This document shows positions 1-56,177 of a DNA stretch of 64,000 bases, in pieces. This DNA comes from Ulva prolifera (Eukaryota; Chlorophyta; Ulvophyceae; Ulvales; Ulvaceae), in the NCBI GenBank assembly GCA_023078555.1, contig CM041199.1, positions 2,049,101 through 2,113,100 of the forward strand, read 5' to 3'. A model generated the notes under the pieces. It was not told the DNA's origin, made no database searches, and was given only the letters and a program-made list of their open reading frames with translations. Each line of letters starts with the position of its first letter. Position 1 is the first letter of the stretch. A program made the translations under genes and the position numbers.

Positions 1-1
1 G

Positions 2-4970: not shown

Positions 4971-4994
4971 ATCATTACTTGATCTATCAAAAGG

Positions 4995-7205: not shown

Positions 7206-7215
7206 GGCGAGCGGG

Positions 7216-10600: not shown

Positions 10601-11640
10601 GAGGTCTTGCACCGCCGGGAGGGCATGACGACGTCAGCCTGCTCTGCAGGAACAGGTCCAGCACGGCTATTCTGGGGAGCGAGGAAGCGCTTGTCAAGAG
10701 CGTCCCCTGGCCGGTCCAGCGGATGGGGCCCATCGGCATCATGCTCACGCGCAGCTTGATGAGTGGCATGGCGGAACAGCAGCCGAACCCGTACGACGAA
10801 GACAGACTCAATGCTGCCATCAGCCGCGTCCGATCTGCCATTCAGGGCAGTAGCAAAGGGTACCTGCTCGGCACCTTCTCGTACAGGGCTGAGCCTGTCA
10901 AACCCTCGAGGGAGAGAGCTCTGCCAACATATCAGGAGTAAAAATTGCACCAGGTCAAGCTGGTGTCTTCCTGGAAGGCTCTTCCACCTCACATGGGTGT
11001 GCCGACCATTGTTGGGTCATCGGGTTTGATCACATAGAACAATTCCGAATATTCAGACCTAATTTCGGGGTGGCGGTCCTGGGGATGTGTGGCATTCCAG
11101 TGAAGTCCAGTGAAGTCCAGTGATAAGACCGCTCTACCACTGGACTGCCACAGGATGCTGCAAAGCGACCCAACCCCGGTACAGGCACATGCATCGCAAT
11201 AATCTGTCAGTTGCTGCGGCCTCTTCCAGATGACCGGCTCGAGCTCCCCAGCGCCCTCGTGGCTGCTGCGTGCCCGATAGAGGATGCTGCCGGCTGCTGC
11301 GTAGATGTCATTGAGTGGCGAGACTGGTTGCTGCGTAGATGTCATTGAGTGGCGAGACAAGAGTGTTGCGCAGCACAGGCACAACGGATTCCGCCGTAGC
11401 TGCCATGGACTGCTGTCTGATGCCATGCATGCTGTGTCATGCACGTGCGTGAACACATCGTCACCGTTCAGTAGAGGCGTACAGGACACGGGATGGCAAG
11501 GGGCTTCAGTCACTGACCGGGACAGTCTAGGAATGTCACGTCTGAAGCTCTGCACCCGTCAGGGATTGAACAGAAGACCGCGGGTTTGGCAGGTGCTTCA
11601 CAACAGGATTGAAGCACAGGCAGCTGCTCCACAGAGACGC
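10601..11640. other. Innermost part of the left arm, no recognised gene
   Basis: An open stretch on the plus strand (about 10,640-10,940) includes the peptide DEDRLNAAISRVRSAIQG and is conserved in the right copy (minus strand, 27,516-28,013), but I do not recognise it. The CAGTGAAGTC unit is repeated at 11,097-11,122. The stretch TGCTGCGTAGATGTCATTGA with its following bases is present twice in tandem in this arm (about 11,297-11,360) and once in the right arm (about 27,318-27,350). Confidence 0.55.
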
Positions 11641-27040: not shown

Positions 27041-28288
27041 GCGTCTCTGTGGAGCAGCCTGTGCTTCAATCCTGTTGTGAAGCACCTGCCAAACCCGCGG
27101 TCTTCCATTCAATCCCTTACGGGTGCAGAGCTTCAGACTTGACATTCCTAGGCTGTCCCAGTCAATGACTGAAGCTGCTTGCCATGTCGTGTCCTGTACG
27201 CCTCTACTGAACGGTGACGATGTGTTCACGCACGTGCATCACACAGCATGCATGGCATCAGACAGCAGTCCAGCTACAGCGGGGTCCATTGTGCCTGTGC
27301 TGCGCAACACTCTTGTCTCGCCACTCAATGACATCTACGCAGCAACCGGCAGCATCCTCTATCGGGCACGCAGCAGCCACGAGGGCGCTGGGGAGCTCGA
27401 GCCGGTCATCTGGAAGAGGCCGCAGCAACTGACAGACTATCGCGATGCATGTGCCTGTACCGGTGTTGGGTCGCTTTGCAGCATCCTGTGGCAGTCCAGT
27501 GGTAGAGCGGTCTTGTCACTGGACTTCACTGGACTTCACTGGACTGCCACACATCCCCAGGACCGCCACCCCGAAATTAGGTCTGAATATTCGGAATTGT
27601 TCTATGTGATCAAACCCGATGACCCAACAATGGTCGGCACACACATGTGAGGTGGAAGAGCCTTCCAGGAAGACACCAGCTTGACCTGGTGCAATTTTTA
27701 CTCCTGATATGTTGGCAGAGGGTTTGACAGGCTCACCCGTGTACGAGAAGGTGCCGAGCAGGTACCCTTTGCTACTGCCCTGAATGGCAGATCGGACGCG
27801 GCTGATGGCAGCATTGAGTCTATCTTCGTCGTACGGGTTCGGCTGCTTTGCCGCCATGCCACTCATCGAGCTGCGCGTGAGCATGATGCCGATGGGCCCC
27901 ATCCGCTGGACCGGCCAGGGGACGCTCTTGACAAGCGCTTCCTCGCTCCCCAGAATAGCCGTGCTGGACCTGTTCCTGCAGGCTGACGCCGTCATGCCCT
28001 CCCGGCGGTGCAAGACCTCAGCCGAAACCAGCCAGCCATAGCTGCAGCATCATAGTGGCCCCGAGCGACGTGCAGGGGGAGACATCAAAGCGTGTGGCGC
28101 AGGGGGCGAGCGGTCGGCAGGGCTCGACGAAGGCGGCCTCGGCACCAAGCTCGCAGCGCGAGGATCTGTCTCTGCATCAATGCCACCTGCAGCCATCCCG
28201 ATGTGCATGTCACTGCATGTCACGAATTCCGCCCAAAACTAGGTCTAAGCTAGGCAAGGCACGCATTGCAACTGCGCAGCGAGAGCTA
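27041..28288 (-). repeat. Inner piece of the right arm
   Basis: It is the reverse complement of 11,640-10,331. It carries the end of the decayed POLE copy (about 28,040-28,240) and the unidentified inner segment. Several small indels separate it from the left arm. It ends at TA 28,287-28,288, where the transposon begins. Confidence 0.93.
28040..28288 (-). pseudogene. Decayed POLE 3' end, right arm, distal fragment
   Basis: This is the counterpart of 10,331-10,590: it resembles the start of the last POLE exon (GGCGGCCTC.. and CGGTCGGCAGGG in reverse). It was cut from the proximal fragment (39,802-40,560) by the transposon insertion. Confidence 0.75.
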
Positions 28289-28299
28289 CACATAGGCTA

Positions 28300-29242
28300 C
28301 AGCAAGATAGGAGCACCCGGGTGCTCCAGGAAACAGGGTGCGCATGAAGTGGGTGCGCATAGCCATGTGAAACCGAAAACCGCTCGAATTCCGATCTAAA
28401 GGCCTTTATAGTATTTATTGAGGTGCATACCGTCCTAAGACGTGCCGAGAATGAAGATTGGCGGCATATACGACCCGCGGCAGTACTGCATAGAGCTTGC
28501 CTGCGCACCTTGAGGGGTGCGCACAGGTACAGGTGCGCACGGTGCACGTGCGCGTTGTTGTGAACAATGTTATACTGGAAGGGAACGACGTTGCTTTATA
28601 TCCGATATGTGAGTGGATGAATAGACGGGCTTTGTCCAGTAATTTTGGCCTGTAACAGCAACGGTGCCGCTTGCAGCCTCGCTGCTTGCGCACCCAGGTG
28701 GGTGCGCAAGCATCACAGGTGCGTCACCTGTGTGCGTGTAGCTGGCACTGGTGTCGTGTAACCCGGGTCACCGAATGTGATGAGCCGCGGTATTGCTCGC
28801 TGCTCTTCCGTGCGGGATTTCTATGGGCATCATGGTTATTGCTGATGTTGTTCATGTGTCGGAGGTTGTCAAGTGCACGTGCGCACGACATCATTGGTCT
28901 GTTGCCCGAAGTATGCTGTGACAGTTGTTTGAATGCGATTCTCCTTTCGGTTATTCGTTCCTTGGCGATCTGGCATGTGTAAAATGATTCGCGATCCCCG
29001 TCAATGTGTGTATCTTGCCGTGTAGCAAGTGTCGCTGGGGGATTCACCTGCATTCATGACCGGCTAGTACCTGTCACGCATGCTGTTGTGGGTACGAGTT
29101 GCGTTTGGGGGGTATGGTGAATCGAACATTAATACATTGCATGGCAATCTAGTCTTCTGTTGCGTCGTACTGTGCTGCTTGTCGAAGCCGGGCACGTGTA
29201 TATCCTGTGACCAATTTATGAGCGCTTGCTCTAGTCGTTGCT
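28300..29242. repeat. Left subterminal repeat region of the transposon
   Basis: It holds an 18-bp perfect palindrome (GGAGCACCCGGGTGCTCC, 28,310-28,327), several GGTGCGC-type motifs at 28,335-28,365 and 28,500-28,555, and a 30-bp palindrome at 28,683-28,712 (14-bp arms TGCTTGCGCACCCA, 2-nt loop). In CACTA elements such motifs bind the accessory TnpA-type protein. The rest up to 29,242 looks like promoter/5' untranslated sequence of the transposase gene. Confidence 0.8.
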
Positions 29243-32200
29243 ATGGCAAAGCGGAAACGACCCGCACTTGTAAAATTGGCTCATGGATGGACGTTCTGTA
29301 GCGCCTGTAACAAATCCTTTCGTAGAGCTGACAATCTTCGCAGGCACTGTACGTCGAATAGGCACGCCGTCAAATGGGTAGAAGCGTCGTCTCCGAAGAC
29401 AGCAGGTCCATATCCATTACCTAATGTCATTACTCCCTCAGCGTGCTTTCGTGCTCTAACTGGTGCAGTCCCTTTGGACCGCCCGTCGGACAGGTCCCAA
29501 TCCTCCAATCAGGTAGAGGATGCCGGATGTCTTCATGCTGACAGTCCGCAACATATTCTCTTGCCCGTCAACCCAAGTCAAGAAGATTATCAGGACCCCC
29601 CAGGGGATGGTCCCACGCTTCCTGAACTGACCGCTGCTGATCGAAAAGCTTGTGAAGTTCATGAATCTGAGAGAGTGGAGCCCCTGTCATGGGAGGTCGA
29701 AGACACTGAGCCTTTTGACGATGCACCTGAGTCTGAGCAGGTTGCTGGTGAGGTCGAGGACATGCCAGATTCAGACATGGTATCCTCCACGGTGTGCCAC
29801 TACGCCTGTCATATTGGTACTCAAGATGCTAAACATGGGTAGCTATGGTGGCAGGTTACACTCCGGGAGGTTAGCGTGTTGTGGATAGTTGTAGTAATGT
29901 CTCGTTGTGCAGGACATTGACGATCTCCTACGCTATTGGGAACATGAAGGGCGGGTACGAGGTGGCGATGAGATGGATGCAATTATGCAAGCGGCAGAGT
30001 CAGCAGGGTGGTTCCACGAAGGACATTTTAGTATGGATGTCTTCCAGCTCAGTCTACAAGAGCGCATGGACGCTCAGAAGGCTGATCAGATCAGCACTGA
30101 TCGCCGCACCCCACAGAAGGGTACGGTGCGGTGGTATCAGGCCAACGCGGACGAAAAGATCGCCAGGGGTAGTGTAGTGTCTGTCAGGGAGGCTGCTTTC
30201 TGCCTGGCTTCAATCAAGCTTGGTGGCGGCATGACCGTGCAGAGTTTTGACACGATCTGCCGGCTGCTCGCCAGCGGTGGTCTACTTTCACCCGAAGAAA
30301 ATATAATGCCACGGTATGTGTCTTTCAGGTCTGTCAATTGGCCGTGTCCTGCTGCAAGCGCTGCTTTGTTTGCTAGGCGTGATTTGCTTCATGAGATTGC
30401 CTCATTGGTGTGAGCATGACAAAGGTGTGAATGCTACCGTTACAAACATGGAACACCCCGTGTAGGTCTCAACACATCATACACGGTCTTCTCTGTATCC
30501 AAAAGCCAGACGACTATGCCTGGGAGATGTGTGACAATGGGCAATGCCCAACTGTATACGGGGAGCACACCACGATGGCCCAGCGTATCAAAAATGCAGG
30601 AGAGCGTTGCAAAAGATGCGGCTCCCCACGGTACCGGAAACGCAAGGCTCTCATCCAACCCGTCCGCAAGTATGGCATCCCTCATGTGTTGATGTGGGCC
30701 TTGTGAGTGTGGGAGTGGCGAGAGCGAATGGTTGCGTTCCATGTGACGTCCTTGTGGCTGCAGTGCCTACATTTTGAAGCTTGCTGACGTGGTGCGACAT
30801 TTGTTTGGTGTCCCAATTTTTGCCAAATTTGCCGGGACACGGACGCAGGCATTCCTCGACTCTCCTTTGTACCAGCAGTTGGACGAAGGACATGGACATG
30901 CTCTGTCTGCTCTGTCGAATGATGGGTCCGCCCCCAGTACTACCAACACCTGTGCAACAGACTCCTCAACTCCACCAAATGTGCCTGCATCGTCATCAGG
31001 CATTGTACATGCCCCAGTCGCCACTTCACCTAGTGCCCCAGCTAAATCCTCCGAGCCTACCCCCGGCTCCACGCCGCCTATGTCTCCCATGGAAGACGAA
31101 GTCGCAGAGACGGTGGATCCCGATCCCAGTGATGAACACATGACCGGGAATGGAGACTCCATGACCCTGACATTCGGGTTATTTATTGATGGAGTGCAGC
31201 TGCACCAACATGCTCGAGCCACCACGACTGTTGTTGGTATCAAGTGCATTGACCTTCCAGCGTTTCTTGCCAATACAGATATTGCGTGTTATCCTCTCGC
31301 TTTCATAGATGGGCCTAAAGAGCCCACTAACCTGTCCGAATTCATGGCAATTGTTCTTCGACAGTTCAAGGAGCACGAACCTGTAGGACAAGCAAACGAC
31401 AAAGGTGAGTATCCTCGGTGTATGTGTTGGTCTCAATGCACATGGAATTGCTCGCAACCTGGTTTGCCATGTGTATGCTGGATGTAGGCGAAACTGTTGT
31501 GCGTGGGGCCCCAATACGTGTTTGGGACAGTCACCGCAAGAAGTATCGCCTGGTGTTTCCCGTGCTGGTGTTTGCATTTGCGGACACACCGGCAAGGCGG
31601 AGTTGGGCCCTCACAATCGGCCACACTGGATTCAGAGGGTGTGACAAGTGCAGTATCAAAGGGTTCCGCAGGTTACCCGACGGGACGACACTCGGGTGGA
31701 CTGCATTTTGTGGATATTACAGGGAGTGTCATGCAGCGGTACTCGAGGAAGGCGCAAAGGTGCGCATTTTCGTGTCTATTTAAATATGCTGTCCGGATAT
31801 TATTTTGCGGTTTAGGTGTTGGTCACCCGCAGGTGCTTTGGGGTGAGGTTGCCGCACCAAGATTTCATTACCTATGTTATGTTGCATGTACAACTGGCAA
31901 GCCGCGTATACACACCAGCATATGATCTGAGGAAAAATACCGTATGCAGGTTTGGTCAGATATCACAATCCAACTTGGCTCAAACGGACAGCCAGACCTG
32001 GCTGCTGTGGCGCGCATCCGTATCACGGACGAGAAGCACCGTGCCAGAAGTGCTGAGGCAGACGCAATCAGCGTTGAGTGGGAGCAACAAGTCCCGCTCC
32101 CCGAAGAGGCGCGCAACGGAGGCGCACTTACTGCAGACCCAAACACTACAGCTCAAAGGCGTTTGACTCAAAGTATGCTCTGGACCTCGTTCATGAATCA

Positions 32201-34245
32201 CCATGCCTTCATTGGCATCTCTGTAATGGTGACTCGGTTTATGTGCAAAGCCATTATATGAAACCGTGTATCGATTACTGTGATCGAGGGGGAGGTGGTG
32301 TACAGCATGCTTACGCACCTGGGAGACTCGATACACGGGCGCCAATACAGAGCACAGGACACTTGGGTGCCGTGGGACCAATCCATTCCAGGCAAGTGGC
32401 CTGCGTTCGTACAAGTGAGAATTCCGCCTTCTGTATTGTGATATGTCCTCCCGATCCACTCCAATTGCGTGCTCTTGTCTCAAATGCCTATCTGCATGGT
32501 GTGCAGTTACCAATTTACATTTGTGGAGCCAATGTCCCACTCGATCTTGTATGCCCTGGTACGTACGTTCTTGGAGTTGATATGCCACGTGAAGAATGGT
32601 TTGATTGTGGACGGAAAACTCTTCTCTTTGGCCGTCGAGCTACAGGTTCGGATGGATATCTTTGCTGACAGGATACAGTATCCAAGTGCCTACCACCGGC
32701 GTCCCCCAAGACTGCGAGGGTGACGCTGCTACCATTCTGAGACTTGATTTACGTGTACTGCCTCTGCCGATGACATGGTTGTGCCGCATGTTGTGTACAG
32801 AATCTGGTGTGCAGAATTGTGCGTATTTCCAAGTGGCTCTTCGAGGAGCTCAACACTTTCGTGGAGATTACTGGGGCCGCATGCTTCTACGTTGCCAGGG
32901 ATGAAGTGCACCCAGGCATCTTGAAGATGTGGAGTCACCTCCGGAAGTACACGCTGTACTTCCTGCATTACCGCCCGGGCCAGCACACTTTGGAGCAGAT
33001 CCGAGCTGCGCAACGGGAGCTCTTCCAGTTCGGCGAGTACGCAGAAAAGCACTTGCAGTGCAAGATGCTGACTCTGTCTTGTGCACAGGTGTTTCGCCCA
33101 CATACCTGAGCATGTCATGAGCACCCTCCCAGGTGCCTTCCTCCGGGAAGATTGGGGCGAGCGCATGATCAGGCTCACTAAAGGTAGGATCACTGGACAC
33201 GCCACGCAGCAATCGGCACGGGCATCAGCGCAAGTGTGTTTGACAGAGATGGGGCTCCGTGTAAATCAGCAAGAGCACCCAGGTATTGATGCTCCGCTCC
33301 TGAGAGTCATGCCTCCAACCAGCTCAAGGCCAATGGACCCAGGGGACGACTATGGGACCCTTTTGCATCGATTGACCCCAGCATACACTGGAGGAGACAA
33401 TGATGAGGTGTGATCTTGTCCAATGCCACTTCAGACTGCGTTGAACGGATGTTGCTGGACCCGTGCGGTCTACATGATACCTATATGACACTACACCTGA
33501 AACAGCTACACACTTGTGCTGTGTCATGAGCTGAAACACTGTGTTGTTGCAGGAAGTCCGGTTTGGGCGTGTTTTGCAGCAGATGGAGGAGAGGGCCGGC
33601 CGTGCACACCGGGTAAATGGCGACCTCGCTATTGCCGGCAAGCTTACCAAAGATCATATCACCGGGAGAAGAGTAGGGGCCGGACACCCCGTTACTTACC
33701 CTGATGGTATCCGGCCGGATGTCTTGGTGTCTGACACCGCGACAATTCAGTCAGGAGCGTATGTTATCCGCACTGAACTTGGGTCCGTGGCGTACAAACG
33801 AACTCATACAGACCAGTACGTCTACATCCCCTTCAGGTCAGGCCGGACACATAATGCATGTGTCATGTGTATAGAGCAACTTGTGCTAGTTAAGCGTGTC
33901 GGCATGGGCTGGCGAAATGACGAGGCCAGGATAGCTGTGGGGACTCTGTGGGATCATTTGTCTGTCCGACACGGTGCAGGATTGGAGTCCACTTTTAATG
34001 ACGATCCCAAACAGGGTGCCTGTGTCATCCCACGTGCCATGTTATTGACTCCGCAACGCAAGGAGAAGGGATATAAACATGCTGTTTTCATTAGGCAAAT
34101 CCAATGCCCTTGCGTGTATATTCCTGACAATAAAGGTGGAGATGTTTTTATGACGATCAGCAAGATGGGGTATCGTGGCAGGAAGGATCTTTTGTGGGGA
34201 AGTGATTGTGGGCAGCCCACAGAGGATGTTGAGATTGATCGATGA
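29243..34245 (+). CDS. CACTA/EnSpm-type transposase (Tnp2 family) with N-terminal C2H2 zinc finger
   Basis: Exons placed with matching phases: 29,243-29,779; 29,913-30,313; 30,466-30,669; 30,764-31,404; 31,488-31,759. Then come less certain pieces within 31,949-32,720, then 32,801-33,057, 33,089-33,407 and 33,553-34,245. The N terminus has a zinc finger (CSACNKSFRRADNLRRH). Tnp2 signatures follow: FGLFIDGVQLHQHA (the first catalytic Asp region), AFIDGPKEPTNLSEF, FAFADTPARR, a C-x2-C in GFRGCDKCSIKG, RTFLELICHVKN, then WSHLRKYTLYFLHYRPGQHT and EHVMSTLPGAFLREDWGERM. In 31,950-32,480 the best reading changes frame more than once, so the gene is either more finely spliced than I could resolve or mutated. 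Between 33,057 and 33,089 a 31-nt stretch starting GTGCAA and ending CACAG must be removed to keep frame. Confidence 0.82.
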
Positions 34246-35299
34246 GTGAGTGTTGTAATCAACATCCTGAAGGTAGTTGTGTCGGCAAGTGTCGAGTGTA
34301 CAAAAGGTTACAAGGCAGCACTGTATTGCAACACATGCTGAGAGTGCTATATTCATTGGTCTACTTCCGATGGTACCTGACAATCCTGCTGTGCTAAGCA
34401 CTTGCGCGCGATACACTGCAGTGTGACTGAGATTACAGTATGGAAGTCAAGGTAACTGTATGCGATGACACTGAAGTTGAGCTGCTGTCTAATTTCCTTA
34501 CATATGCACTACGTTTGGCTTAAGGTGCTGTGCTGAGAAACAACTAAAGAATGTCTCCATTGTTCTGTTGAGGTCACACGCAACCGTCCTGACACTGTGT
34601 CTACAAAGCAATTCATTTCTTTCAAAGCCCAGGCCTGCTGAGACCCACGTCCAGCAGATATGCTAGTCAACGTGTGATCAATGTGTGTTTGTGTTTATGG
34701 CCGTGCAGCAACCGGGCTGGTCTCTAGACAATCCTGGAGTTGTGAATCGTGCCAGCTTAAGCTGGCAATTGTCATTGACCGCTGTTGCTGGCAACCGTGT
34801 GGATGCCGTTGCAGCACATCTCTAGAGCTGCAGCTGGAGGTGCATGCAACAGAGCACCACCGGCATGTTTGTCAAGTAGTCATAGTAACTCTTTCGAATA
34901 TCTCTTCAGGCTCATGTTTACGTTGGTTTGAGTGTGGTGACATGTCCATCGCACCTCCGGCGCAGGCTGGTTGTCGTAAGCATGCACACACGACTCAGGT
35001 GGTAACAGGCACAACGGCCGCAAACAGGGCGGAAATCCGGCCATCACATACGATTCATATTATTATTATTCACCTTTTTACGTCATCAGATTTCCGCCCT
35101 ACGTGCGGCACATACGTATTGGCGTCACAAGCGGACGTCGATCAGCTCTAGCCATGTGGCTACGAGGGCACGACGGACCGCGACCAGCGTCCGTCGAGAC
35201 TTTGGACTGAGCAACGTTGATTGCTGACGCCTCAAGAAGCACGGGCACAGTACATGCGGTGTGCACGATTGCTGCTAAGCTCTGCCGCATGCGTTCAAA
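34246..35299. other. Spacer between the two transposon genes
   Basis: It should contain the end of the transposase transcript and the promoter of the second gene. No coding sequence is recognised. Confidence 0.6.
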
Positions 35300-38054
35300 A
35301 TGTCAGCCAATTTGACCCCCATGAAGGTCCGCCTACTGAAGGCACTCGCTCTTGTGATCGACGGCAAGCAGTATCGAATGTCCATGTTGAGGAGTGAAGA
35401 TCAGCCTATCGATGATTTCCTAGCAGAACTTCGTGTGGAATTCGTACGTAAGCTCGATACACATAGCCATCGTTTGTACAACTCCGTAGAGGGAAGCCTA
35501 GACGTCGAAGACACCCGTTCCGAGCGAATTTTTGATATCATTGTGAAAATACCGTATCAAGGCGATCATGACTGGCCGCTACAGCGGGCGGAGACTACGG
35601 GCGTGATCGTAGTGAAGCCTCCACGCACGGGCATGGTGCAGACCCAGCATGCTCAGGTCGGTCGCAAGGCAACAAACCGGCGCTTACAACGGAAGGCTAT
35701 CGAGGTAAATGGACTATTGTTCGGCCGTGCAGGGCAGCAGCTTCGACGCCCCTCGTTGGCGGTGTTGTTAATCGCCGGTATGCTCCAGCCGGACACGCAA
35801 TCCACTGTCATCTCAACCTGCCAGCTATCGCGGTGCAGGCAGAGAAGGAGATGATAGCACATATGCTGATGTTGATGCCCAAGATATCCGACGCTGCGTT
35901 CCTGCACCTATTGACGCACCTCGATGTGTCTGTGGTGTCCGGGACACCGTCCTTCTCCCTCGGCGCCGTCATGAGTCAAAAAATCAGGACTATGCTGATC
36001 GATCCGGCTGTGAAGGGGTGGGTGGTTCCTGATGATATCGACGGCAGCAACGTACTACGCTCTTCTCACTAGTCGCATGCAAATCGACATACGCCATTAC
36101 CGTCGCGCTGAATAAAATCAATCACCGTACAGGACTTCGAGGGTCTCGAGCAACTCCGGAACGGGTGGAGTATCTTGGATGCTAAGGGCTCCGCCATTCG
36201 CATGGTGTATTCGTACGTCTACAGGCGATGTATCTTGGTAGATCGTCCAGAGGTCGCAGAAGAGGCAAGGATGGCCCTCGGTAATGTTTCAAAAACATAC
36301 AACACTGATAACAAGCGTAAAGCACAAGCGTCGGTGGACCTCTTGTACCTGTCATGGGCGCAAATGTTTGAGGAACACAAAGACGAAACAGGCGGCCTGG
36401 TCGGACTCATGATGTCAGAGGAGCACGGATTGTCCAAAGAAGAGGCTGAAGCAACGACAGCAGCTCTTGAGCACACTTTCAAAGTCCTCAAGCCGACGGA
36501 AGGACAGCCTGTTCTTGCGAAGGACTTCAGAAAAGCGATGCGGGACCAGATCAAATCCATGCTCGCATCCGAGCGGAATAAGAAGGAGCGAAAACAGCAT
36601 CTTATGCACTGCCTATTGATCGTAGCCCTTGATTCTGAAGGATTGCGGCGTCACACAACTGTGGCAACTAGTCGCCCCTGCTTTCTTGACTACATGCAAT
36701 GATGCAGGGAGTCAAGTGCACATACCATCAGTGGGCACTGCTGATGGGGTCTCCAGAGTCTAGGAGCACTATCAAACTGTCAAGGCTGCCGAGTGAGGAC
36801 TCAGCAGGAGAAGACAAACTATATGTAGACAGCGATGGCCACAGATCCCACATAGGCTGGGGCGACATGTGGGGCACAGCAGGCAGCCACCTGCCAGGAA
36901 CTCCATTGGGCTTCATGCACCGGGAGTATGATGTATATGAAGCAGCAGACCAGCTCGATGTCGCGTTGCTCTCTGACATGGCCTCCATTAACCTCGACAG
37001 GCTGTTTGCAGCCAGTGGAGGTAGCACAATCCCCAGTTGGCTGAGATTCCAGCAGGTGCACCGGTTATTGGTGTGGCGGGTGCCCTGTCTCAGCGATGGG
37101 CCGAGTGCAGCAGAAGAGCCACAGGGGTCAGAGTCACAAGGTTCTGATGAGGAAGCACCCGACGACGAGGCAGCAGCGATTGAGGCATCTGCAATAGATG
37201 ATACCGAGGTCTGGATGCCGAGAAGAGGTTACATCAACGTGGCCGGCGTCCTCATGCTGATGCGAATCGTCCCGTACGTGGTGCGTGGCCATGGCTATCT
37301 GTACCATTTGTACATGTGCCAAGGTTGAAAGCAAGGGTAGACTCACTGTGGTCTTGTTCCAGGAAGCGTTGTTCCAAAAGTATGACATGCCACCCCCAAC
37401 AAATTTGCTCAAGGTGTGTAACACGCTGGCTTCAATTGTACCAGAGAGACCAGGTGAAGCTGCGCAGCATGATGTTGACCACTGCCCTGACGATAATGAG
37501 AAGGATATTTTTGCGGAAGTTGCAGCGGAGATCGAAACAGGTGCAGCTGCCAGGGAAGCCAGGTCTACGAGGCGGGCAGCAGCGAAGGGCAGTGGCTTGC
37601 CGCGACAAACTGCTGATGTTGCTGGTCCGTCTACCGGCCCTTCAGCAAGGTCCAGTTCAAGAAGGAGTTCAAGGATTCCTCAGGGCCTTGCAGATTCACC
37701 CGCTGCAGCGGAGACTGATGAAGACTCTGCACGTGCCAGTACTGATGAAGACGAGCCAGAGGTGAGCTGTGACTGCATCCTTCTTGTCACTCAAAACGTC
37801 GTCCTGATCCTCGAGGTACTGAATGAGGCAGGCGCAGCATGGCAGTCACACTGACTCACTGCTACGACTTGTACATAGCGAATCGGTACAGGTATCCTGG
37901 AACTCCTCAGAGACTGACAGCAACCCTCCATCCTCAAGGCCCAAAGGGAGACGTCGCCAACCTGCGGTTACTCAATTGCCTTCCAAACGAAAAGCAAGAA
38001 GCAGCGGCAGACAACCGACCCAAGCAAAGAAGGCGCCCCGGAAGCCGCCCATGA
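35300..38054 (+). CDS. Second transposon gene, unknown protein (accessory-protein candidate)
   Basis: Exons placed with matching phases: 35,300-35,704; 35,839-36,051; 36,133-36,621; then one from 36,708 (end uncertain, before 37,360), one starting near 37,363 (LFQKYDMPPP) and ending near 37,758, and a last one from about 37,912. The last exon is open in two phases (stop at 38,054 or 38,062). The start MSANLTPMKVRLLKAL resembles the N-terminal segments seen in transposon accessory proteins, but I recognise no domain. The middle is rich in charged helices (WAQMFEEHKDETGG, EEHGLSKEEAEATT). Acidic Ser/Glu tracts follow, and a basic tail (KRKARSSGRQPTQAKKAPRK in one phase) would serve as a nuclear signal. 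By analogy with CACTA elements it may be the TnpA-like protein that binds the subterminal repeats; that is inference from position only. Confidence 0.6.
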
Positions 38055-38062
38055 GGCGGTAA

Positions 38063-39790
38063 CGCCTAGGTACGAGTCACCAGAGCCTGATAACCCCGTT
38101 CACATTCTTACCAAACTAGAATTGGGTTTGTACTGGTTATCCATGGTATGCGTTGATCAGAGGCTGTAGGTAGATAACGGCAATGTGCACTGAAAGTCAT
38201 CAGCATGTGCTGGCAAAGCAGTGTTGCATTTCAGCTTAAGCAGTAGCAGCGGAATCATGACGGGGCATGGGATGTGCAGGGCATGCTCAAGTGACACCAC
38301 GGACACCGTACGACACCAAGGTAGACCTGATGACCTCCTGCATGCCTCTGCCTTTGCTTTGTTTGAGGCGGTTTCATACCAGTAGAGGTTGCCACGTATG
38401 CATGAAGAGATGGTGTAGGCTTGCTTCTCTCCCTGGTGAGGGTGCAAGGACAGCGGATGTACAGTGTAAACCTGAATGGCAACCCGGATACCACCTGGAA
38501 CAATAGTGCATTGTGAAATAAAACAGCAGCTATTGATCTCGATCTCTTCGTGTTATATTGCGCACCTAATCGGCGCATGCCGCGCTTCTTGCGCACCAGG
38601 TAGGCGCACAGTCAGGCGCACCCCCCAGGTGCGCCGATTAAGTGAGGCGGCGCAAGCTAGGGGGTGCGCGCCACCAGGTGCGCGACGGAACCCCTGAAGA
38701 GCGCAGGATCGCTGCGAGGCTCGCGGAGAGGCGTACATACTCTCTGAACATATATAGTTTAATCCCCGGGAAGGGCCAAAGCGGCGGAGCCCTGGCGTGG
38801 CATGGAGCAAGCCGGATACGTTGAAACAACAGCTCAGGAGATACCATCACAGCCCAACTCCCACCGACATTAAAGGATCTGCAGTAACAGAGTCTAAGAC
38901 GTTATATGGACTGGTTGGCCGACGCGGAACCTGTAATGCTGACGCCTAGACTGATGAGGATGTCCACGAGCCTCGCCTGCTACTGAACACTGTATGTACG
39001 CGATTACGGAAGATAGCGACGCGCAAATCGCATCGTAATGCCAAGAAATTGTCAATTATCTCACTACTTCGGTTCCGCGTCACACCGTGCCCGGACGAGT
39101 GCAGGGCACTGGGCTCGGCGTAAGCCTCTGGTGCACATACAACTCGAATAAGTGTGCGAGCACGCACGCCAACATCGTAAGTCGCACGTAAGCATTTCAC
39201 ATTGGCTTATTAAAATGCTATGGAACGGTGACATTCCTTTTAAAGCACCGAAGCACCTCAATTTCGGTCAGTGACCCCCGGGGCAGCTCACCGACTTCAT
39301 AGCTGTACCACCCAACTCGGCGCACCGCAGCGCAAACCGCAAACAGGAACCACAGAAAAACATATGTTTAGCTTACACGAGCGCCGGCGCGCAAATTCAA
39401 GTTACTCTGAAGGACTTACGCCAACGATGCGCGACAGGGAGAGCAACCTATACAACGCACTTCCGCTCCGAGAACAACCCGGGCAGGTTGTGACGGAAGC
39501 CCAAACTTCCATTTAATAGCATATCAGCGATACCATGTCGTGGTGTTGGCTTGTAGGCATGCGGTATCACCTGTAGGGGCTCGACGACCCCAGTGACCTG
39601 CTTCGCGGAAACACCTGTGGGAATGCGAGTACCTCACCGATCGTGTTGGGAACAAGTTCACTGAGATCCCAAGACCACAGGCTATCTTCAGCAGTTAAGT
39701 TGAGGTGATTTAGAGGAGTTTGTGGTGATCTTGAGATTTCACCTTTCAGCGCGCACCCGGCACGCGCACCCAGGGTGCGCGCGCCACGCA
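38063..39790. repeat. Right subterminal region of the transposon
   Basis: It holds clustered GCGCACC/GGTGCGC motifs at 38,560-38,690 and 39,750-39,785. It includes an inverted pair (TAATCGGCGCA at about 38,567 and TGCGCCGATTA at about 38,631) and a 17-bp hairpin GCGCACCC-A-GGGTGCGC at 39,764-39,780. The stretch 38,850-39,740 shows no gene. The motif family is the same as at the left end, consistent with binding sites used by the element's own proteins. Confidence 0.75.
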
Positions 39791-39801
39791 TAGCCTATGT
39801 G

Positions 39802-40560
39802 TATGCACAGCTCACAACACACACCTAATTTGTTACATTGCATCCCTCCTCTACGGCCACATGCATGGCATATAATATGCACACGCGAATATGATCATGC
39901 ATGGCTGCGCCCAGCCAGATGAGCGGGCTCGTGCTCCGGCTGCGGCTTGAGCCGGGGCTACACAGGCACATGTTGGTGAACGTGTTGCATATGCATGATG
40001 ACAGCAGATCCCATGCACTGACCACTGGGACACCCGGCACGGCAATACCAACCACACACTCTCGAGCGACTGGTGTGAAAGGCACTGAGATTGCAACGCA
40101 CACCTCATCGATAATTTCGCAGCCGAGGGCGAGGGCGGCCCACGCTATGCGCGTGATTGCAAGGGCCGGCATGGCGAGGGCGGGGAGGCTGACCGCGTTC
40201 GAATTCACTGCGCGCCAGGCATAGGAGGGCTCGACCCTGTGCACGTGCAAGCGGCGCCCATGGCATGACCTCGTGTGGCACCACATTCGCTGCGCTACGT
40301 GGCATGCGCACCACATTCGCTGCGCGCCGCTTCACGCGTGGTGGTCACGGCGCCCCGGCTTCGGGCTGCGATGGGCGCCCGCGGGCAGGGCTGGCCGTTG
40401 CTGAGGCAGTCCCGGCCAGAGCCGGGACATGTACCAAGGCACCGAGGCAACGCCTGCCTATACCGTGCTGTGCAAGTGCCACACCGTCCCGTAGCTGTTG
40501 CCGGGAGCGCGTTTGCTTGCGTGTTGCTACACAGCCACAACATCACCACCAACGCAACTA
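39802..40560 (-). pseudogene. Decayed POLE 3' end, right arm, proximal fragment
   Basis: This is the counterpart of 9,640-10,331. It keeps the same order of POLE-derived blocks as the left arm (CTCATCTGGCTGG-like block at 39,910, the CCCAGCGCAG-like block near 40,370) with extra small indels. It ends at the transposon's right target duplication. Confidence 0.75.
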
Positions 40561-41748: not shown

Positions 41749-42645
41749 TCATTCCAGACTTTCAGCAACCTCGACAGCGGATCCGAAGCGGTCTTTGGCA
41801 AGAGCTCGCAAAATGCAAGCCCCCCACTCGGGCAATCCGGCGGTGTACGGAACTATAAACTTGTTCAAACTCGTTCTGACAGGAGCGTGAACACGTACAC
41901 TCAATTTTTCATACAATTTACTGGCACAATGGCCCAATTTCATGCCTTCAGGCACACACTGACCTACTTTATCTCGCAATTCACCGGGTAAGTGCACCTG
42001 CCACAAATCATACCATGCAGTATTCTGCCTTTTCGCCGCTGGAAGAAGTGCTCTAATCCTTTGCTCAACACATTCCATAAGATCGCGGCTTGTCAGCAGT
42101 CCTTCATGATACGCAACGATGGCTTCGAGACGTTGTAAATTCTCCACAAGATGCCCTTCCCGCAACCTGTGATGCTCCTTCTCTGCTGTCAGTGACACCA
42201 TTGCCGTCTCCTTTGCTCGCTTCTCCTCCTCCCTCTCCTGCTGTATCTTCCGCAACTCCTCTTGTATCTTCAACAACTGCTCTGCCTTGAGCAACACTGC
42301 TGCTCGCTTCTCCTCCTCCCTCTCCTGCTGTATCTTCAACAACTGCTCATATTTCTCCTGTTCTATCTTCCGCAACTCCTGTTCTGCCCTCCGCACCTCT
42401 TCGAAGCGATCCTGATTTGATCTCAGCAACAGCTTCGTCAATTCGTCCTTCTCCCGATACACCTCAGCGATATCGACACGACTGCTGCTTCCTGCTCCTA
42501 TGCGGACTCGTCGAGACTTCCGCACCTCCTTTTCGCCTGCATTTTTTTGTTGACTGGCCACCCGCGATGCGAGTGCCTGCAAACGCAGCTGCGTCTGTCT
42601 CGTCATATGCACATGCTCCTGTGCAATACTGTTTTGGCAAGGCAT
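41749..42645 (-). CDS. Coiled-coil protein of unknown function, right arm
   Basis: This 298-residue frame is the counterpart of the left-arm gene at 7,774-8,694. It lacks one 12-residue coiled-coil unit (ELRKTQQHRYEQ in the left copy) and has four extra residues (VSLT). About ten substitutions are spread over the protein, for example EC-VEQS to VEQR and LPSEL to LPGEL. The frame is open from the first Met (MPCQN) to the same C terminus. No domain is recognised beyond the coiled coil. Both copies keep frame despite length change, which favours a real protein, but expression is not shown by the sequence. Confidence 0.6.
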   Translation of the reverse strand: MPCQNSIAQEHVHMTRQTQLRLQALASRVASQQKNAGEKEVRKSRRVRIGAGSSSRVDIAEVYREKDELTKLLLRSNQDRFEEVRRAEQELRKIEQEKYEQLLKIQQEREEEKRAAVLLKAEQLLKIQEELRKIQQEREEEKRAKETAMVSLTAEKEHHRLREGHLVENLQRLEAIVAYHEGLLTSRDLMECVEQRIRALLPAAKRQNTAWYDLWQVHLPGELRDKVGQCVPEGMKLGHCASKLYEKLSVRVHAPVRTSLNKFIVPYTAGLPEWGACILRALAKDRFGSAVEVAESLE

Positions 42646-43780: not shown

Positions 43781-44699
43781 CTATCTGCCGTTTGTTAACA
43801 AGAACATCATATCGTCCATGTCAATATGTCGCTTATCGGGTGTTGCACAATCATTGTGCACAATGGGCTGGAGTGCTGGCCTTGCACCACTCAATGGCTC
43901 TCCTGTATTAGCAAGCGAGAGTGAGTCACATTCAGCCTCTTCCATCATTTTGTCATCACTAACGTGAACATCACCTGGCTGGGCAATGCTTTTGTTCAAT
44001 ACACACTGTTCCTCCACAACAGCTGCATTCTCCTGTCCCGAGAGCTTTTTCTCGAACTGTGATGAGCGGTCACTGAATTTCTTGCTTCTGCTCTCACTTT
44101 CTGGCTGGTCCTCTCAAATCTGGCGCAGGGACCTGCTTCTTGAACACTCTTGTCTGTCTTTGCTGTAGTCAATGCATCAACTGGTCTGATACGCTTGCTC
44201 GACTTCTCGTGTCCCCTTGGCAAAGCGGTTTTATGCCTCTTCACCTGTGGAACATAGCTCTGCACAATGTGGCCTGCTCGTGCAGAAGCCTTGCCCCTGG
44301 CTATCAAGCTAGGGCTGTAAGTGTTTCGGAGCAGCTGATTGAGCAACACATCTATGCTCCCAAAAATCTTCCTGTGGTCATCGTCAGGGCAATCAGGATT
44401 GTTGAATCTTTCACAAACGCGCTGGAATTTGTTGGCCATTCCTGAACCATTCCTGGCCTGCTCGATTTTGGAAGGTGTCCGTTCTTCTGCTAACACCCTT
44501 GAGCAGCCAACGACTGCCTGCGCAAGTTCCCAAGGTATATATTGTCAATTGCAGCATCTGTCTTGGAAGATGTCTGCAGCAATTGCGACATCAAACTTTC
44601 TGGCTCTGAGGGAGGTATCCCGCTAAGCTTTGCAAGCCGCTGCAAGTTCTCTGCGTAGATGCGCAAAAATCTACACGTCTTGTCAAAAGCGGACAGCAT
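43781..44699 (-). other. Downstream open frames of the MULE-like element, right arm
   Basis: Frames at 44,490-44,699 (69 aa), 43,996-44,496 (166 aa) and 43,781-44,017 (78 aa) correspond one to one to those at 5,710-6,628. They differ by only a few residues (for example KSIKRIR to KSSKRIR). No domain is recognised. Confidence 0.45.
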
Positions 44700-45414
44700 C
44701 TGAATGAGTCCAGAGGCATATACGCTTCAGGATCGAGGAATTTGGTACCCCTTCTATGATTTTGCCAGTGCAGAACGCTCTGGTGTCTTCGCTGACCTTT
44801 ATAGTCTGGTGCGGACATCCCTCCTGTGTGGGATCACTGCTGTGCTTCCCATGATTGTGCAACACAATGTACAAGTCATTGGGATGGTTAAGGAACACGC
44901 GGCAGTGCATCTTGTACTTGCAACCATAGCAGGTCACTCCAGTACCCCTTGCATTCCTGCCTACACGAGAAGGTCCATTGGCAGCAGCTGTTTGATCTGC
45001 CTTTGCAGCCATTTTAGCAGCATAAGCCCCAACCAGCCCAGCATCCTGCCTTTCTTTGGCAGCTGTACATCGGCTGGCCCCGAAATTGCTAAGATAGGTG
45101 TGATTCAACGTAGTAGTCCTGCCAGGTTTCTGATTATGCTTACATAGCCTGCAGTTGCCCCGCTGATCCTCAGAGCGCTTGACATTTTCAAGGACGTTGT
45201 TGACATCCTCGCAACGAAGACACGCAGCAACAGTATCCTTGCGTGAATCAAGAGTCCAGCGTATGCTATCAAAAGATATAGACTCATCACATTGTTGAGG
45301 TTCCAGTTTCAAGTCTCGAACGTCTACCGCAATGGACAGGTCCGTCATCGGGGATGTCATCGGAAGCGCCATAGTATATGCACGCATTTTGGCCACGAAG
45401 GCATTCCTGGCCAT
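44683..45414 (-). CDS. Zinc-finger protein of the MULE-like element, right arm
   Basis: It encodes 243 residues with the same C162/C165/C171 and HNH pattern as the left copy, so the finger is intact. C109 is Ser here, so that residue is probably not a zinc ligand. It begins about 130 bp inside the terminal repeat and is transcribed inward. No catalytic domain is joined to it. Confidence 0.65.
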   Translation of the reverse strand: MARNAFVAKMRAYTMALPMTSPMTDLSIAVDVRDLKLEPQQCDESISFDSIRWTLDSRKDTVAACLRCEDVNNVLENVKRSEDQRGNCRLCKHNQKPGRTTTLNHTYLSNFGASRCTAAKERQDAGLVGAYAAKMAAKADQTAAANGPSRVGRNARGTGVTCYGCKYKMHCRVFLNHPNDLYIVLHNHGKHSSDPTQEGCPHQTIKVSEDTRAFCTGKIIEGVPNSSILKRICLWTHSDAVRF

Positions 45415-45546
45415 CCTTTTGATAGATCAAGTAATGATAGTGTTTCTGCTGCTGCTTTACTGCTCGTACGGCTGACTTCCGTGGACTGTCCAAGCTAGCT
45501 AGGGTGGCTAGGGCACACGGTACGTGTAAGAATAATATGGGCGCCC

Positions 45547-47878: not shown

Positions 47879-50800
47879 TCACCCGTTTGCGACCCACTCC
47901 GCCGCCTCCAGCAGCCCCGGCATCTCGTGGTGCCGCGCTATACTCCCCACAACCGTTGCGCACATCCGCACGTCCCCGCTGTCGCCGGCAAACTCCAGCT
48001 CCCCGCCACAGTCTGGACACTGCCGCTCCGCACCCCCTCGTGAGAGCGCGCGGCACCTCCGGCAGCGCAGGTCGCACAACGTGCCGCCGGCCACGGCTGC
48101 GCGGAGCCGTTCATGCAGCCTCGCCTCGATGTCCGCCGCCGGGCGCGGTGCGCTGCAGGCGCCGCAGCGCCAGCCGGCATCGCAGTGGCTACGGGTGACA
48201 TCGAGGGGGGCGACGGCAAAGCACACGGTGCAGGGTACGGCTGGGAGGACGAGCGGCCGGCAGGGGTCAACGAAGGCGGCCTCAGTTGCAAACTCGCGGA
48301 CATGCAGCAGCGCGAGGAGCTGCTTCCGCATCGAAACCACCTGCAACCACGGTTTGCGATAAACGTCACCGCATGCCTCCTCATCGGCCGCATGCACGAC
48401 AGACCATATGCACGCATGAGTACGATTGCGCATGGCTCCGTCCAGCCAGATGAGCGCGGTGATGCCCACGGCCGGGACTGTGTGGGTGCGTGTTTGTGAA
48501 TGCATTATGCACGCGTAATGACATAACAGTATTGATGCAGGCGAAGTGACCGCTCCCGAGTTTGGGACATAACAAGGCATCCAGCACTGTAGCACCAATC
48601 ACACACTCTTGCGTGGCCGGGCCAGCCTGCAGATAAACATGCATGATACCACAGCTGAGATGGGGGGGGGGGGGGGGGGGGGCACTGAAAAGTCCCATCG
48701 TCATGACCAAACAAGCAACCAACTCTGCAACGACCGATGTACAAGATGATCAGCTGATTCCTTGAAGAGCACCGACGCATACTACGAGGCAACGCAACCT
48801 GATGTACCGATGCGAAGTCTCAGTTATGCAACACCGAACATACACACACTCGAGCGGGCGGTGTGGCAGACAAAGAAAAAGCGATTGAGCTTGTGGCGGA
48901 CCTCGTCGGCGACGGTGGAGTCGAGGGCGAGGACGGCGCACACGGTGCGGACAAACGCAAGCGCCGGCGTGCCGAGGGCGCCAGGCAGGAGGTGCGAGCC
49001 GGGGGGATGCGGGAAGCGCGCTGCGGCGGCGGCGGCACCGGGGAGGATGTGGCGCGCAATGGCCTGCGTCATCTGGAAGAGGCGCTCCAGCAGGCGCGCC
49101 GGTAGCCACTCGCGCAGGTACTCGAGGGTGCATGCATCGACGGTGCGCACGCCGACGAGTGCCTGTGTCGCGCCACCCTGCATCATGATGCGTGGGACCT
49201 GTGATTTTGAGGTGGATGTTTACATTCAATGCTGCTACATACGATATGTGTCTGGATGCTCTACGATACGGTAGTCCCAGCTGGTGTAACTTATGCGCCG
49301 CATGCGGCACGCCCAGCAGTCCGGTTGTTGCGGCACGCGCGCTCGCAGGGGTTGCAGGGTCTCGAGTCACCGGCGCGACAGCCCGAGGCACCTGTTGTAA
49401 CGTGTGGCTGAACTTATGCGACTGAGGGATGCGTGACTCCAGTGAACCTTGCCACGAGGAAGCTAAAAATGCGATAGGTGCGTACATAAATTGAACAAAA
49501 AACATTGCTGCTGCGATTCTTCACGAGAGGCCGCATCAGGCGTCATCATTCACTTTGGCAAATCATCCAGCTCTTGCACCGCGATTCAAGCCTGCTTCCC
49601 AACGGACAGGATGGACACGGAGACGACAGACAGCAGAGAGAGCGGTGTGTAGTCCGTGGCTGATCTAGGTGCGTGGCCGCAAATCCATTGAGCGATCAGA
49701 AGCAGCGACAGTTCTTGCATGGGACAGAGCGTAACACGTCCCACAAGGCAGCGAGGGGCCCTCGCCAGTGCCGGCTGGGGTAATATACCGTAGCTTGGTC
49801 TCGGCGTCACACGTGATGCGGCCGAGCATGCGCGACAGGTGAGGCAGACGGCGGCCGCTGCGACACACACAGGGTTGCGCCGCCCTGAGCAAGTGGCGGC
49901 CACTGCACGACCTCGAGCTGCACCAAAGGCGTCACGAGGCCCGAAACAGCGCGCCAGGTTCAATCTGCGCTGGGCACCCGCAGACAGGGCTGCCCTTCGC
50001 TGAGTCAGCCCTTGCGAGAGTCGGGGCCGCACCGGGGCAGCTTCGGCATCTGCCTGTACCGCGCGCCATGGCCGCGCCACGAAGCGCTCCACCACGTCGT
50101 CAAAGTACTTGTGCACCGCCTCCGGCAGAAACTCCCGCAGGTTCCAGTGCGCCTCGTACGCGCAGCCGCCCGCCGCGGCCCCCGTCGCAGCGTCTGCTGC
50201 AGCCTCCGCCTCTGCGGGCACCTCTGCCGCATCGTCGACGTCCTCCCCCTCCATGTCATCCTCCAGCGCCGCCATGTCTGCGTCCGCCTGAGGCGGCGGT
50301 GGCGGTGCCGCCGCCGCCGGCGGTGCAGCCGCCGCTCCGCCGGCATCTAGCGCGGCGAGCGGGACGCGCACGCCGGAGTAGTTGAATGCGTCCCGCCACA
50401 GCAGCGTCGCCCACACGCGCGATGGCTGCAGCGAGACCCACGCGAAGAGGGGCCGCGCGGCGAGAGTGTCCGTGAGGAAACGCACGTACGCGGCGGCCGC
50501 CGGGAGCGTGTGCTTGCGAGTCGCGACGATGATGGATGCCGGCGACGCCGCAACGATGGTCGCGTCGAGCGCGCGCAGCTCCGCCAGCAGCTGCAGGAAC
50601 GTCTTGGCGACGGCCGTCTCGACGGTCGTCTGGAGCAGCGGGGAGTGCAGCGCGGACGCCGGGTCGAGCAGCCATGCGTGTAGCCTCCGCAGCAGGCCAT
50701 CCGCGACGCTGACACTCCTGCAGGCGAGTGTGTGTGGGCGCTTCGCATCCGCCTCGGTGACGCGTTTGTTTTGGACGCTGGCTGGGCCATGTGCCTCCGG

Positions 50801-53800
50801 AAGCAAGCGCGAATGCCAACGCCCCGTGCTGTGTGAATACACACTGTGCAGGCATACACGATGCTTGACCTGTGCTGTCTAGGCATCTCTAGACGTGGAC
50901 TCGCTTGATACCCCAGGATGTGCTGGAGCCAATGCATGGGGCGGTGGCCGCACCTGTTCGCCGCGTCATTCGCCCACGGCGCCAGCATGGACCGCAGCAC
51001 GGCGAGTGTGCGGCCGGCGCGGGAGCTGCTCGCGTCGGAGCCCTCCGCCTCCGCTAGCTCTGCGCTCTGAAGCACCGCGCACAGCAGCAGGAACTGGGGC
51101 TGCAGCTCCACACACACGCAGCGGTGGGCCCCCCTGCACGCAGCCACCGCCTCAGCTCTTGAAACGAAACACCATCTCTCTGAGCATGCTCAGCAGGACC
51201 ATGAAGACACACAAGGCACCACTTCTGGCTGAGCATGCATGTGTGTTTTTTGGTTCAAGGGTCACCCGAGCTGTGTAGCGGCTGGTGAGGCATGATGCAC
51301 GCCCCAGGGTACATGATACATAGACACGGCTCCAGACGGAGTGCAGAAGAGGCATTGCGAGCATGGTCAGGGGACTTGAGACGCACTGGTTGTTGATGCT
51401 GATTGGGTCGGGCCCCGGGAGGTCCGCCTCATCAGCGCGCTGCTGAGCTGGCACGACGTCCGGCAGCGCCGGGTCTTCAGCCCATAGCAGGTGGCCGGCG
51501 TCACGCAGGGCGCGCGCAAACGCGATGTCTGTCGCAGCGGTGTGCGCGCGCTCTCCGAGGTTACACAGCGGCACGCCCGTATACCGCGCCAGCGCGGCGC
51601 GTGCGCCGAGCCACGCCGGCGCCAGCGCAGCGCGCAGCAGCGCTGCGCGCGGTGCGGCGTGCTGCCAGTCGGCGCCGGCCGCAAACGCGGCCGCTGCCGC
51701 AGCCGGCGGCGCGGCCGTGGCGGAGCACGGCAGCGCGCGCAGCGCGGCGATTCCACTGCGCAGCTGCGTGGCGGCGGCGGCGGTGGCGGCCTCGACGATT
51801 GCAAGCATCGGGCCACGGGTGCCGGCACGCAGAGCGGCCACGTCCGACGCGAGGCGGCTCCTTGCTTCCGCCTCGTCCCGCACGTACGCCACCTGCGCCA
51901 GCGCGCTCCTGGCTGAATCACCCCACCACAAACACCTCCGCTCGCACAGGCCTCAATTCGAAGCTTCTCACCTTGTACTGTGCTCACAGCGCGCAGCATC
52001 GTTGCCTCACCGCATGCACACGGTGCCCTATGAAGGAGAGACTTCAAGTGCATTGGGCAAATTGTTTGTCTCCCGAACATCACCACTCGCATGCCACTTG
52101 TGCGACTACGACAGCGCAGACACCACAAATCAAACGGCAGTGAATGCACCTCACCGGATTTAGTCTCTATATGACGGACACCGCTCAGCAGTGGGCACAC
52201 CTCCACCCGGAATCCCGTCGTGTCCCCCAGTGGCGGCCGCTCTGCCAGCGCGGCTGCCTCCGCCGCCACCTCCTCCCACAAGTCCTCCGCCGCCGACGAA
52301 AACAGCTCCCGCGGCGCGACCGAGTCCCGCAGCGCCACCACCACCACTACCTTCTTCGCCTGCGGCAGCAGCAGCGCCCACACGCCCCGCCCCGGCGCGC
52401 GCCCCGTCGCCGACCGCTCCGGCACCATCTCCACAAGCACGATCACACGCACGAGGCCGAGGAGTGCGTCGCCTTCGGCCGAGGCGGAGCCGGAGAGGTA
52501 GCCGCGCGCGGCGGCGCCGTGGCGGCTGAAGTGGGAGAGAGACCACACCCGTGGGGGAGTGGCGACGTGGCGGTCTGTGACGCGTGCTGTGCATGAGAGG
52601 TGTGCGAGCGCGGTCAGCGCAGCAGGCACGCGGGACTCATAGCAGCCGCGGATCTGCGGCGCCGCGAGCGTGTGTGCGATTGTCTGCACGGCACCCCATA
52701 CAGCTCAATGAGCGCACGCATGTCGACGTTGTGTTGAGGGTGTGGTTGGACACCATGGCGCGCCAGTGAGCAGTCGGGGCATCGGGCTTCATGAGACGGC
52801 GGGAACGAACCCAAGTCGACATGCATGCTCCGGCATCGTGTGCCTGGGGGGTATGTGAACACCACATTTGGGCGGAGGGAGGGATGTTAAAAGCGGATGC
52901 CCATGGCACCCACACACATCGGCCGCAGGGTCAACGCATCAAGAGTGTGCGGCAGCACCTTGGACTGCTCGAGGAGCTCCTCTTCCGGCAGCTCCAGCTC
53001 GAGCAGCGCCGCGGGCTGTGAGCCGTCCGGCAGCGTGCGGTCGACGCGGCGCGCGCCGGCCAGCAGCTGCACCGCGCTCGCGGCCACGTCGACGTAAATC
53101 TTACGTGGCACCTCGACTGCCATCTTGTGCATCGCGGTGTCGATCAACGCCCACACGTCAAGCTGCCCCGGCTTTGCGCCTGGCTCCACCTGTAGCCACA
53201 CAACCCAGCCTCAGCACATGCATGCCCGTGTTGTGGTGACAGACGGCCGGGAGAGATTTGTATCTGCTGACAGAAATTTCCACCAAATCAGATAACCAGA
53301 GTAGAGCCTAGCGCGCCAACATAGCCATGACCACTACCCTCATACCGTCTGGCGTGGCCTGGGCTTGAAAGCTGGACCTTGCGACACCCGCAGCTTGAGG
53401 GTGTTCCGTTACCCATATGGAGCAGTGCACGCAAGCCGACTACTCGAGGCGCACGCTCCACATTCAGAGCACACCTGGATGATGTTCCACGTCGCATGCA
53501 TGATCGCCTCCACCTGTTTCTGCACGCCGCCGCCGAGGCCGCCCAGAACCGCGGGCACGTCGCCCCCGCCCCCGCCGCGCGCTTTCAGTGCCGCGCGGTG
53601 CGTGCGCCACGCCGCCTTGCGCGCCTTCACCCAGGCGCGGTAGTCGCTCCGCATCGACGGCCCCGCGCGCTTCGCGCCCGCCGCATTCCCAGGGACCGTG
53701 CCCCGGTTATCCGGCACGTTTTCAGCATCGGCGCCCTCGTCGTCGACCTCCACGACATCGTCTTCGTCGCCCGCTTCTTCCTCAAGGTCCACGTCATCCT

Positions 53801-56137: not shown

Positions 56138-56177
<40 letters not shown>

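Follow-up and report, generated by a model that had tools for sequence, protein, structure and literature searches.

In plants, CACTA transposons normally begin with CACTA and duplicate 3 bp of their target, and the Spm element is associated with two proteins, TnpA and TnpD. Here we describe an 11,513-bp element that lies in a 64,000-nucleotide stretch of the genome of the green alga Ulva prolifera (C4:2049101-2113100, hereafter the window; 88.9 Mb in 44 contigs). A green-algal host agrees with RbcS exons on multi-megabase contigs, which chloroplast small-chain structures (several of them from Chlamydomonas) match best, and with an AAA-type exon that probably encodes chloroplast FtsH. The element is very likely a class II (cut-and-paste) transposon that belongs to the CMCT group (CACTA/EnSpm-Mirage-Chapaev-Transib) and is CACTA/EnSpm-like. 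Its family is new, its kind is known, and the insertion itself is fairly ordinary. Unlike the plant elements, it begins with CACAT, duplicates 2 bp, carries a separate second gene, and has no match to the Transposase_21 model.

CMCT elements have 5'-CA..TG-3' termini and target duplications of 2 to 5 bp, and their transposases carry the catalytic residues D, D, and E, where C(2)C and H(3-4)H follow the second D and precede the E (PMC12730594). Plant CACTA/En-Spm elements share with the Ulva element CAC...GTG ends, subterminal repeats (mainly at the left end in the Ulva element), a multi-exon transposase, a second protein, and nonautonomous derivatives; their transposases have one to six exons, versus 10 in our model (PMC4158355). 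SmTRC1 and other animal TRC elements also have two conserved D residues and a C-x2-C in the third motif block, and a 2-bp direct repeat flanks 7 of 14 SmTRC1 copies (PMC1636069). Of their motif I, [ILV]x[ILVF]x[ILVF]xxDGxxx[FY]...WP, gene 1 of the Ulva element has only the first half, a core that also occurs in shuffled proteins (see Discussion). They differ in their TIRs (terminal inverted repeats), which begin with CCC, in a similarity to Transposase_21 that was not found here, and in their hosts (PMC1636069). The CACAT start and the 2-bp duplication, which an initial annotation of this DNA had set apart from the plant norm, do depart from it, but both have been published for the wider group (PMC1636069, PMC12730594). 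Among the papers listed in our literature searches, judged by titles and abstract openings, none dealt with green-algal CACTA elements. In the available text on Chlamydomonas genomes, the word CACTA is absent, while Zisupton and Kyakuja are reported (PMC8226300).

RESULTS

Termini and empty site

Both ends of the element are present, which supports its initial description as a CACTA-like transposon. The perfect 11-bp TIRs and the TA on both sides were confirmed at 28287-28299 and 39791-39803 (Table 1). The termini, CACATAGG...CCTATGTG, agree with the 5'-CA..TG-3' form of the CMCT clade. All six copies with both ends begin with CACAT, and none begins with the CACTA of plant CACTA/EnSpm elements. 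The insertion lies in one arm of an inverted duplication, and the uninterrupted counterpart reported for the other arm proved to be exact.

The TIR sequence CACATAGGCTA occurs 37 times in the genome, versus 20 times for a reversed control. Judged by the adjoining sequence, 19 of these sites (11 left and 8 right) are ends of the window element's family, and the remaining 18 are close to the number given by the control.

Table 1. Coordinates of the element, its predicted genes, and its empty site in the window
Feature	Position	Strand	Remarks
Empty site, other arm	10331-10332		Single TA; no additional bases, no footprint
Target duplication, left copy	28287-28288		TA
Transposon	28289-39801		11,513 bp; perfect 11-bp inverted ends, TA on either side
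Left TIR	28289-28299	+	CACATAGGCTA
Left subterminal repeats	28336-28890		GGTGCGCA / TGCGCACC cores, both orientations
Gene 1, predicted DDE transposase	29243-34245	+	10-exon model; exons conserved in relatives
Gene 1, exons 1-5	29243-29779 (end uncertain), 29913-30313, 30466-30669, 30764-31404, 31488-31759	+
C2H2-type zinc finger, gene 1 N terminus	29294-29365	+	zf-met, below Pfam cutoff
Putative first catalytic D region (LTFGLFIDG ... GPKEPTN)	31167-31404	+	D at 31188-31190
Putative second catalytic D (FADTPARRSW) and C(2)C (GCDKC)	31577-31651	+	D at 31583-31585
Gene 1, exons 6-10	31950-32172, 32306-32414, 32507-32719, 32815-33407, 33553-34245	+
One-base frameshift, gene 1 exon 9	33073-33074	+	Private to window copy
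Putative H(4)H (VHRCFAH) and catalytic E (REDWGER)	33081-33164	+	E at 33147 or 33159; out of frame in window copy
Gene 2, putative multi-exon gene	35327-37491	+	Conserved blocks
Gene 2, blocks	35327-35632, 35827-36054, 36118-36405, 36858-37085, 37191-37286, 37342-37491	+
Right subterminal repeats	39749-39785		GCGCACCC; short stretch only
Right TIR	39791-39801	-	TAGCCTATGTG
Target duplication, right copy	39802-39803		TA

Target duplications

Nine copies were examined for target duplications, six with both ends and three lacking part of one end. A 2-bp duplication was present at all six of the former (TA at the window copy, AA at the C9 copy described below, TA at C2:6283177, AT at C3:3603769, AT at C3:4347173, and AC at C10:924325), and a 3-bp duplication was present at none of them. 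Five of the six duplications consist purely of A/T, and the chance of a 2-bp match in all six is approximately 1e-7 given the base composition (57% GC). The three copies with a deficient end had no duplication.

The C3:4347173 copy is inserted in repeated sequence, apparently a Copia-type retrotransposon (frame read by eye). We joined its flanks with a single AT and scored 40 of 321 candidate counterparts in the genome. All 40 matched across the junction at 94 to 99% identity (bases 1-198 in 39 and bases 3-198 in one), with no net length change in 35 and a change of 1 to 7 bases in 5. The six copies and these counterparts therefore indicate a stagger of 2 bp whose sequence is not fixed. TA-specific insertion was rejected, because four of the six copies have other dinucleotides. 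A genome search for copies with the same ends and TA flanks, as proposed initially, did find copies, and the 2-bp duplication held wherever both ends were present; TA as its sequence held in only two of six. Copies without a duplication, named at the outset as evidence against the proposal, were confined to the three with a deficient end.

Related copies and a nonautonomous subfamily

A near-identical sister at C9:2448432-2459943 matched the window copy over its full length, with 4 differing alignment columns in 11,513. With a third copy as judge, one intron substitution is private to the C9 copy and one substitution is private to the window copy; the remaining two-column change is also private to the window copy and is the source of the frameshift described below. 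Gene 2 differs by one base, a synonymous change in the frame used. The family is recent.

The third copy (C4:6453371; loci L039/L040) is a mosaic. Of its 90 differing columns, 71 lie within the first 960 bp, beyond which it is approximately 99.8% like the window element; it lacks the last 15 bp and hence the right end. A 17-bp direct repeat of flanking sequence (4 bp to the left and 20 bp to the right of the insertion) was observed there in place of a 2-bp duplication, and the copy looks like an aberrant or repaired insertion.

We also identified a 4.0-kb nonautonomous subfamily, consisting of four copies that are 96 to 98% alike along 4 kb (one without the last 3 bp) and additional interrupted or truncated copies. 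It shares with the 11.5-kb element the left 466 to 588 bp at approximately 85 to 90% and the right 1.27 kb at approximately 95 to 99%, and its core is unrelated. Because the ends are unequal and the third full copy is a mosaic, these comparisons suggest that left ends have been exchanged between family members.

One 4-kb copy (C10:924325-948588; L045-L047) has grown to 24 kb through nested sequence, some of it flanked by LTR-like direct repeats of 856 bp that are 99.4% alike; an 857-bp unit resembling them is present in L051. For a sibling family with copies on C3 and C8, we found no pair of ends accompanied by a duplication. Its C3 copy has retrotransposon-like sequence at the left side.

Gene 1, a predicted transposase

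The initial annotation assigned two multi-exon genes to the element, and exon conservation in relatives bears this out. We located the gene 1 exons by their conservation in three relatives and joined them at GT-AG sites. The resulting model reads through 1,290 amino acids (aa) with no stop when applied to the C9 copy (the fragment ends a few residues early). The motifs occur in the order D 523, D 627, C(2)C 646-649, H(4)H 957-962, and E 978 or 982. All six relatives that cover D, D, and C(2)C keep them, as do all five that cover H(4)H and E; the distant relative L055 spans only the first D and retains it. From this layout, gene 1 reads as a DDE transposase of the CMCT type. The window family accordingly shares with the CMCT clade its termini, a 2-bp duplication, and D/D/C(2)C/H(4)H/E, the last by motif assignment and not by structure.

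The gene 1 proteins are 60 to 62% identical to those of the three relatives over the aligned exons. The proportions of nonsynonymous (pN) and synonymous (pS) differences were 0.25 to 0.28 and 0.78 to 0.84, respectively, the latter being saturated; the transposase has therefore evolved under purifying selection. The N-terminal zf-met match had an E value of 0.00087 (20.0 bits versus a cutoff of 21.2), and a similar finger is present in L056. Pfam scans of single element exons returned only zinc-finger and chance matches, and a sequence search of the PDB using the transposase core returned nothing at E <= 10.

In the window copy, the model protein stops after 964 aa because of a frameshift approximately 25 to 29 residues ahead of the predicted catalytic glutamate. 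The frameshift is absent from both near-identical copies and from all five relatives that span the point. The window copy was therefore rejected as a working autonomous element, and the initial suggestion that it may still be active was not upheld for it in that sense; the gene of its C9 sister is open.

Gene 2 and its pairing with gene 1

The gene 2 blocks are conserved in two relatives, and the gene 2 exons had no Pfam match above chance. We searched the genome with the gene 1 exon containing the first D and scored 150 of 213 candidates. Of these, 57 were 55 to 100% identical (three full copies included) and 93 were 35 to 43% identical; a search with one gene 2 exon gave 61 matches. Pairing was counted on the 57 nearer loci, with the 93 distant ones left out. 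At 48 of the 57, a gene 2 match of its own follows on the same strand no more than 15 kb downstream, at a distance of 4.2 to 6.2 kb in 40 cases; no pair was on opposite strands, and five were upstream on the same strand. Excluding the three full copies, identity was 28 to 45% in 56 of 58 gene 2 matches, versus 55 to 75% over the first-D exon at the nearer loci, so gene 2 is the faster diverging of the two. By analogy with Spm, its product is probably a DNA-binding partner like TnpA.

The 93 distant places, L055 among them, form a second clade, and a C2H2-like finger lies upstream in the single example read. An apparent 1,677-aa open frame in one weak relative was rejected, as it runs into N.

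Subterminal repeats

GTGCGCA was found in the left 600 bp as 11 two-strand hits at 8 distinct places; a first-order Markov model gave a mean of 0.39 hits, and none of 2,000 simulations reached 11. Further hits lie at element position 3472 and at 10271 and 10302. The right 400 bp contain no GTGCGCA, only GTGCGCG-type copies within the last ~60 bp. These counts therefore show that the two ends are unequal and the pattern one-sided: the dense subterminal motifs described initially are strong at the left end, and the right end has just a short run of a variant form.

Inverted duplication and neighboring genes

In the alignment of the two arms of the inverted duplication, 1-11640 corresponds to 27041-50408, the latter split by the element. 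Moving in from the outer end, successive stretches differ at 2 of 2,995, 11 of 2,992, and 45 of 3,394 positions. The stretch adjoining the insertion (9450-10332) aligns poorly: 105 of 850 positions differ, and one arm carries extra bases (blastn identity of the pieces of this stretch, 91.6 to 95.2%). Across the insertion, the next 974 positions include 25 differences. Conversion between the arms or stepwise arm growth could explain this uneven divergence, and the duplication therefore has no single age. Because the empty site is exact and the window copy has hardly diverged from its C9 sister, we place the insertion after the duplication, as had been proposed; its use as a relative age requires care, given the uneven arms.

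Minus-strand exons at 49589-62651 match DUF1744 and the exonuclease domain of B-family DNA polymerases; this gene is probably DNA polymerase epsilon. Its 3' end lies inside the duplicated arm, and its 3' part is duplicated at ~1-820. Both arms also carry paired open reading frames (ORFs), at 4983-5726 / 44683-45426 and 7774-8694 / 41749-42645. The left-arm members of both pairs had no Pfam match at E <= 0.1; by eye, the ORF at 4983-5726 / 44683-45426 resembles a zinc-binding transposon protein.

DISCUSSION

Several observations weigh against the classification of this element as a CACTA/EnSpm-like member of the CMCT group. The gene 1 exon model is based on conservation, not on RNA, and the motifs were assigned by eye from a general family pattern and then compared with two papers. 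Gene 1 has no match to any Pfam transposase model at E <= 10. Genome-wide, Transposase_21 gave no match over the cutoff and one weak match (18.9 bits versus 28.6), in a search for which 14 control genomes were equally without a match and thus provided no positive control. The core of motif I recurs in 116 of 2,000 shuffled proteins, its second half (F/Y ... WP) is absent from gene 1, and the two D residues are 104 residues apart, versus 80 in the animal TRC elements (PMC1636069). As for the paired genes, 9 of the 57 transposase loci have no gene 2 match, 13 of the 61 gene 2 matches stand without a transposase partner, and 29 of the 61 matched gene 2 stretches contain a stop (introns or decay).

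The missing Pfam match, together with termini and a duplication unlike those of plant CACTA elements, would fit placement outside CACTA/EnSpm, in another CMCT lineage (Lanisha, ESTA, Plavaka, or Mirage) or in an undescribed green-algal one. We consider this somewhat doubtful but worth keeping in view: the CAC...GTG ends fit EnSpm, the TA duplications of ESTA contrast with TA in two of six copies here, and the TGT..ACA or CATCA..TGATG ends of Plavaka are unlike those of the window family (PMC12730594). It also overlaps the classification that we favor, which claims only CMCT membership and a CACTA-like way of working. A canonical plant CACTA element was rejected on the CACAT start, the lack of a 3-bp duplication in all six copies, and the lack of a Transposase_21 match, and the 8-bp duplication of Kyakuja-Dileera-Zisupton (reported for Zisupton) contrasts with 2 bp here. 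The TA flanks of the window copy and of C2:6283177 might recall a Tc1/mariner-type element, an idea that the other dinucleotides at four of six copies refute and to which we give practically no credence. A separate green-algal CMCT lineage, distinct from all named ones, with at least 150 transposase-exon matches, a paired and fast-evolving second protein, and a left subterminal control region swapped among family members by recombination, is at present an unlikely, tentative proposal.

Two further alternatives concern the window copy itself. Cut-and-paste elements are known to leave their sites, sometimes exactly, so the element might have predated the duplication and been lost exactly from the other arm. 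The single TA without a footprint at the empty site argues against this, as do the 4 columns that separate the window and C9 copies over 11.5 kb, set against 25 differences in 974 positions between the arms next to the insertion; we regard such a loss as very improbable. The window copy might instead be autonomous and active, with the frameshift an assembly error or spliced out. Its ends are intact, its gene 2 is one synonymous base from that of C9, it is very young, and a one-base length difference may be a consensus error. Against this stand the two near-identical copies and all five relatives that read straight through the frameshift point, where three relatives have no intron, and autonomy of the window copy is improbable.

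Under the CMCT classification, the DDE transposase of gene 1 would excise the element at its CAC...GTG ends and cut the target with a 2-base stagger, and 2 bp of any sequence would be duplicated on joining. The gene 2 product would probably act as a partner that binds the one-sided subterminal GGTGCGCA repeats, if the analogy with TnpA of Spm holds. In this reading, the window copy jumped into one arm once the inverted duplication existed. Because its gene 1 is frameshifted, it can now move only with transposase supplied in trans, for example, from its C9 sister.

In this family, recent transposition in a green alga has left a clean natural trace: two loci hold near-identical sister copies, the genome still contains uninterrupted sites for two of the insertions, and the second gene, paired with the first, has a testable role. 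Since Transposase_21 misses this large transposase family (none over the cutoff versus 150 scored protein matches), the DNA-transposon content of such genomes may be undercounted.

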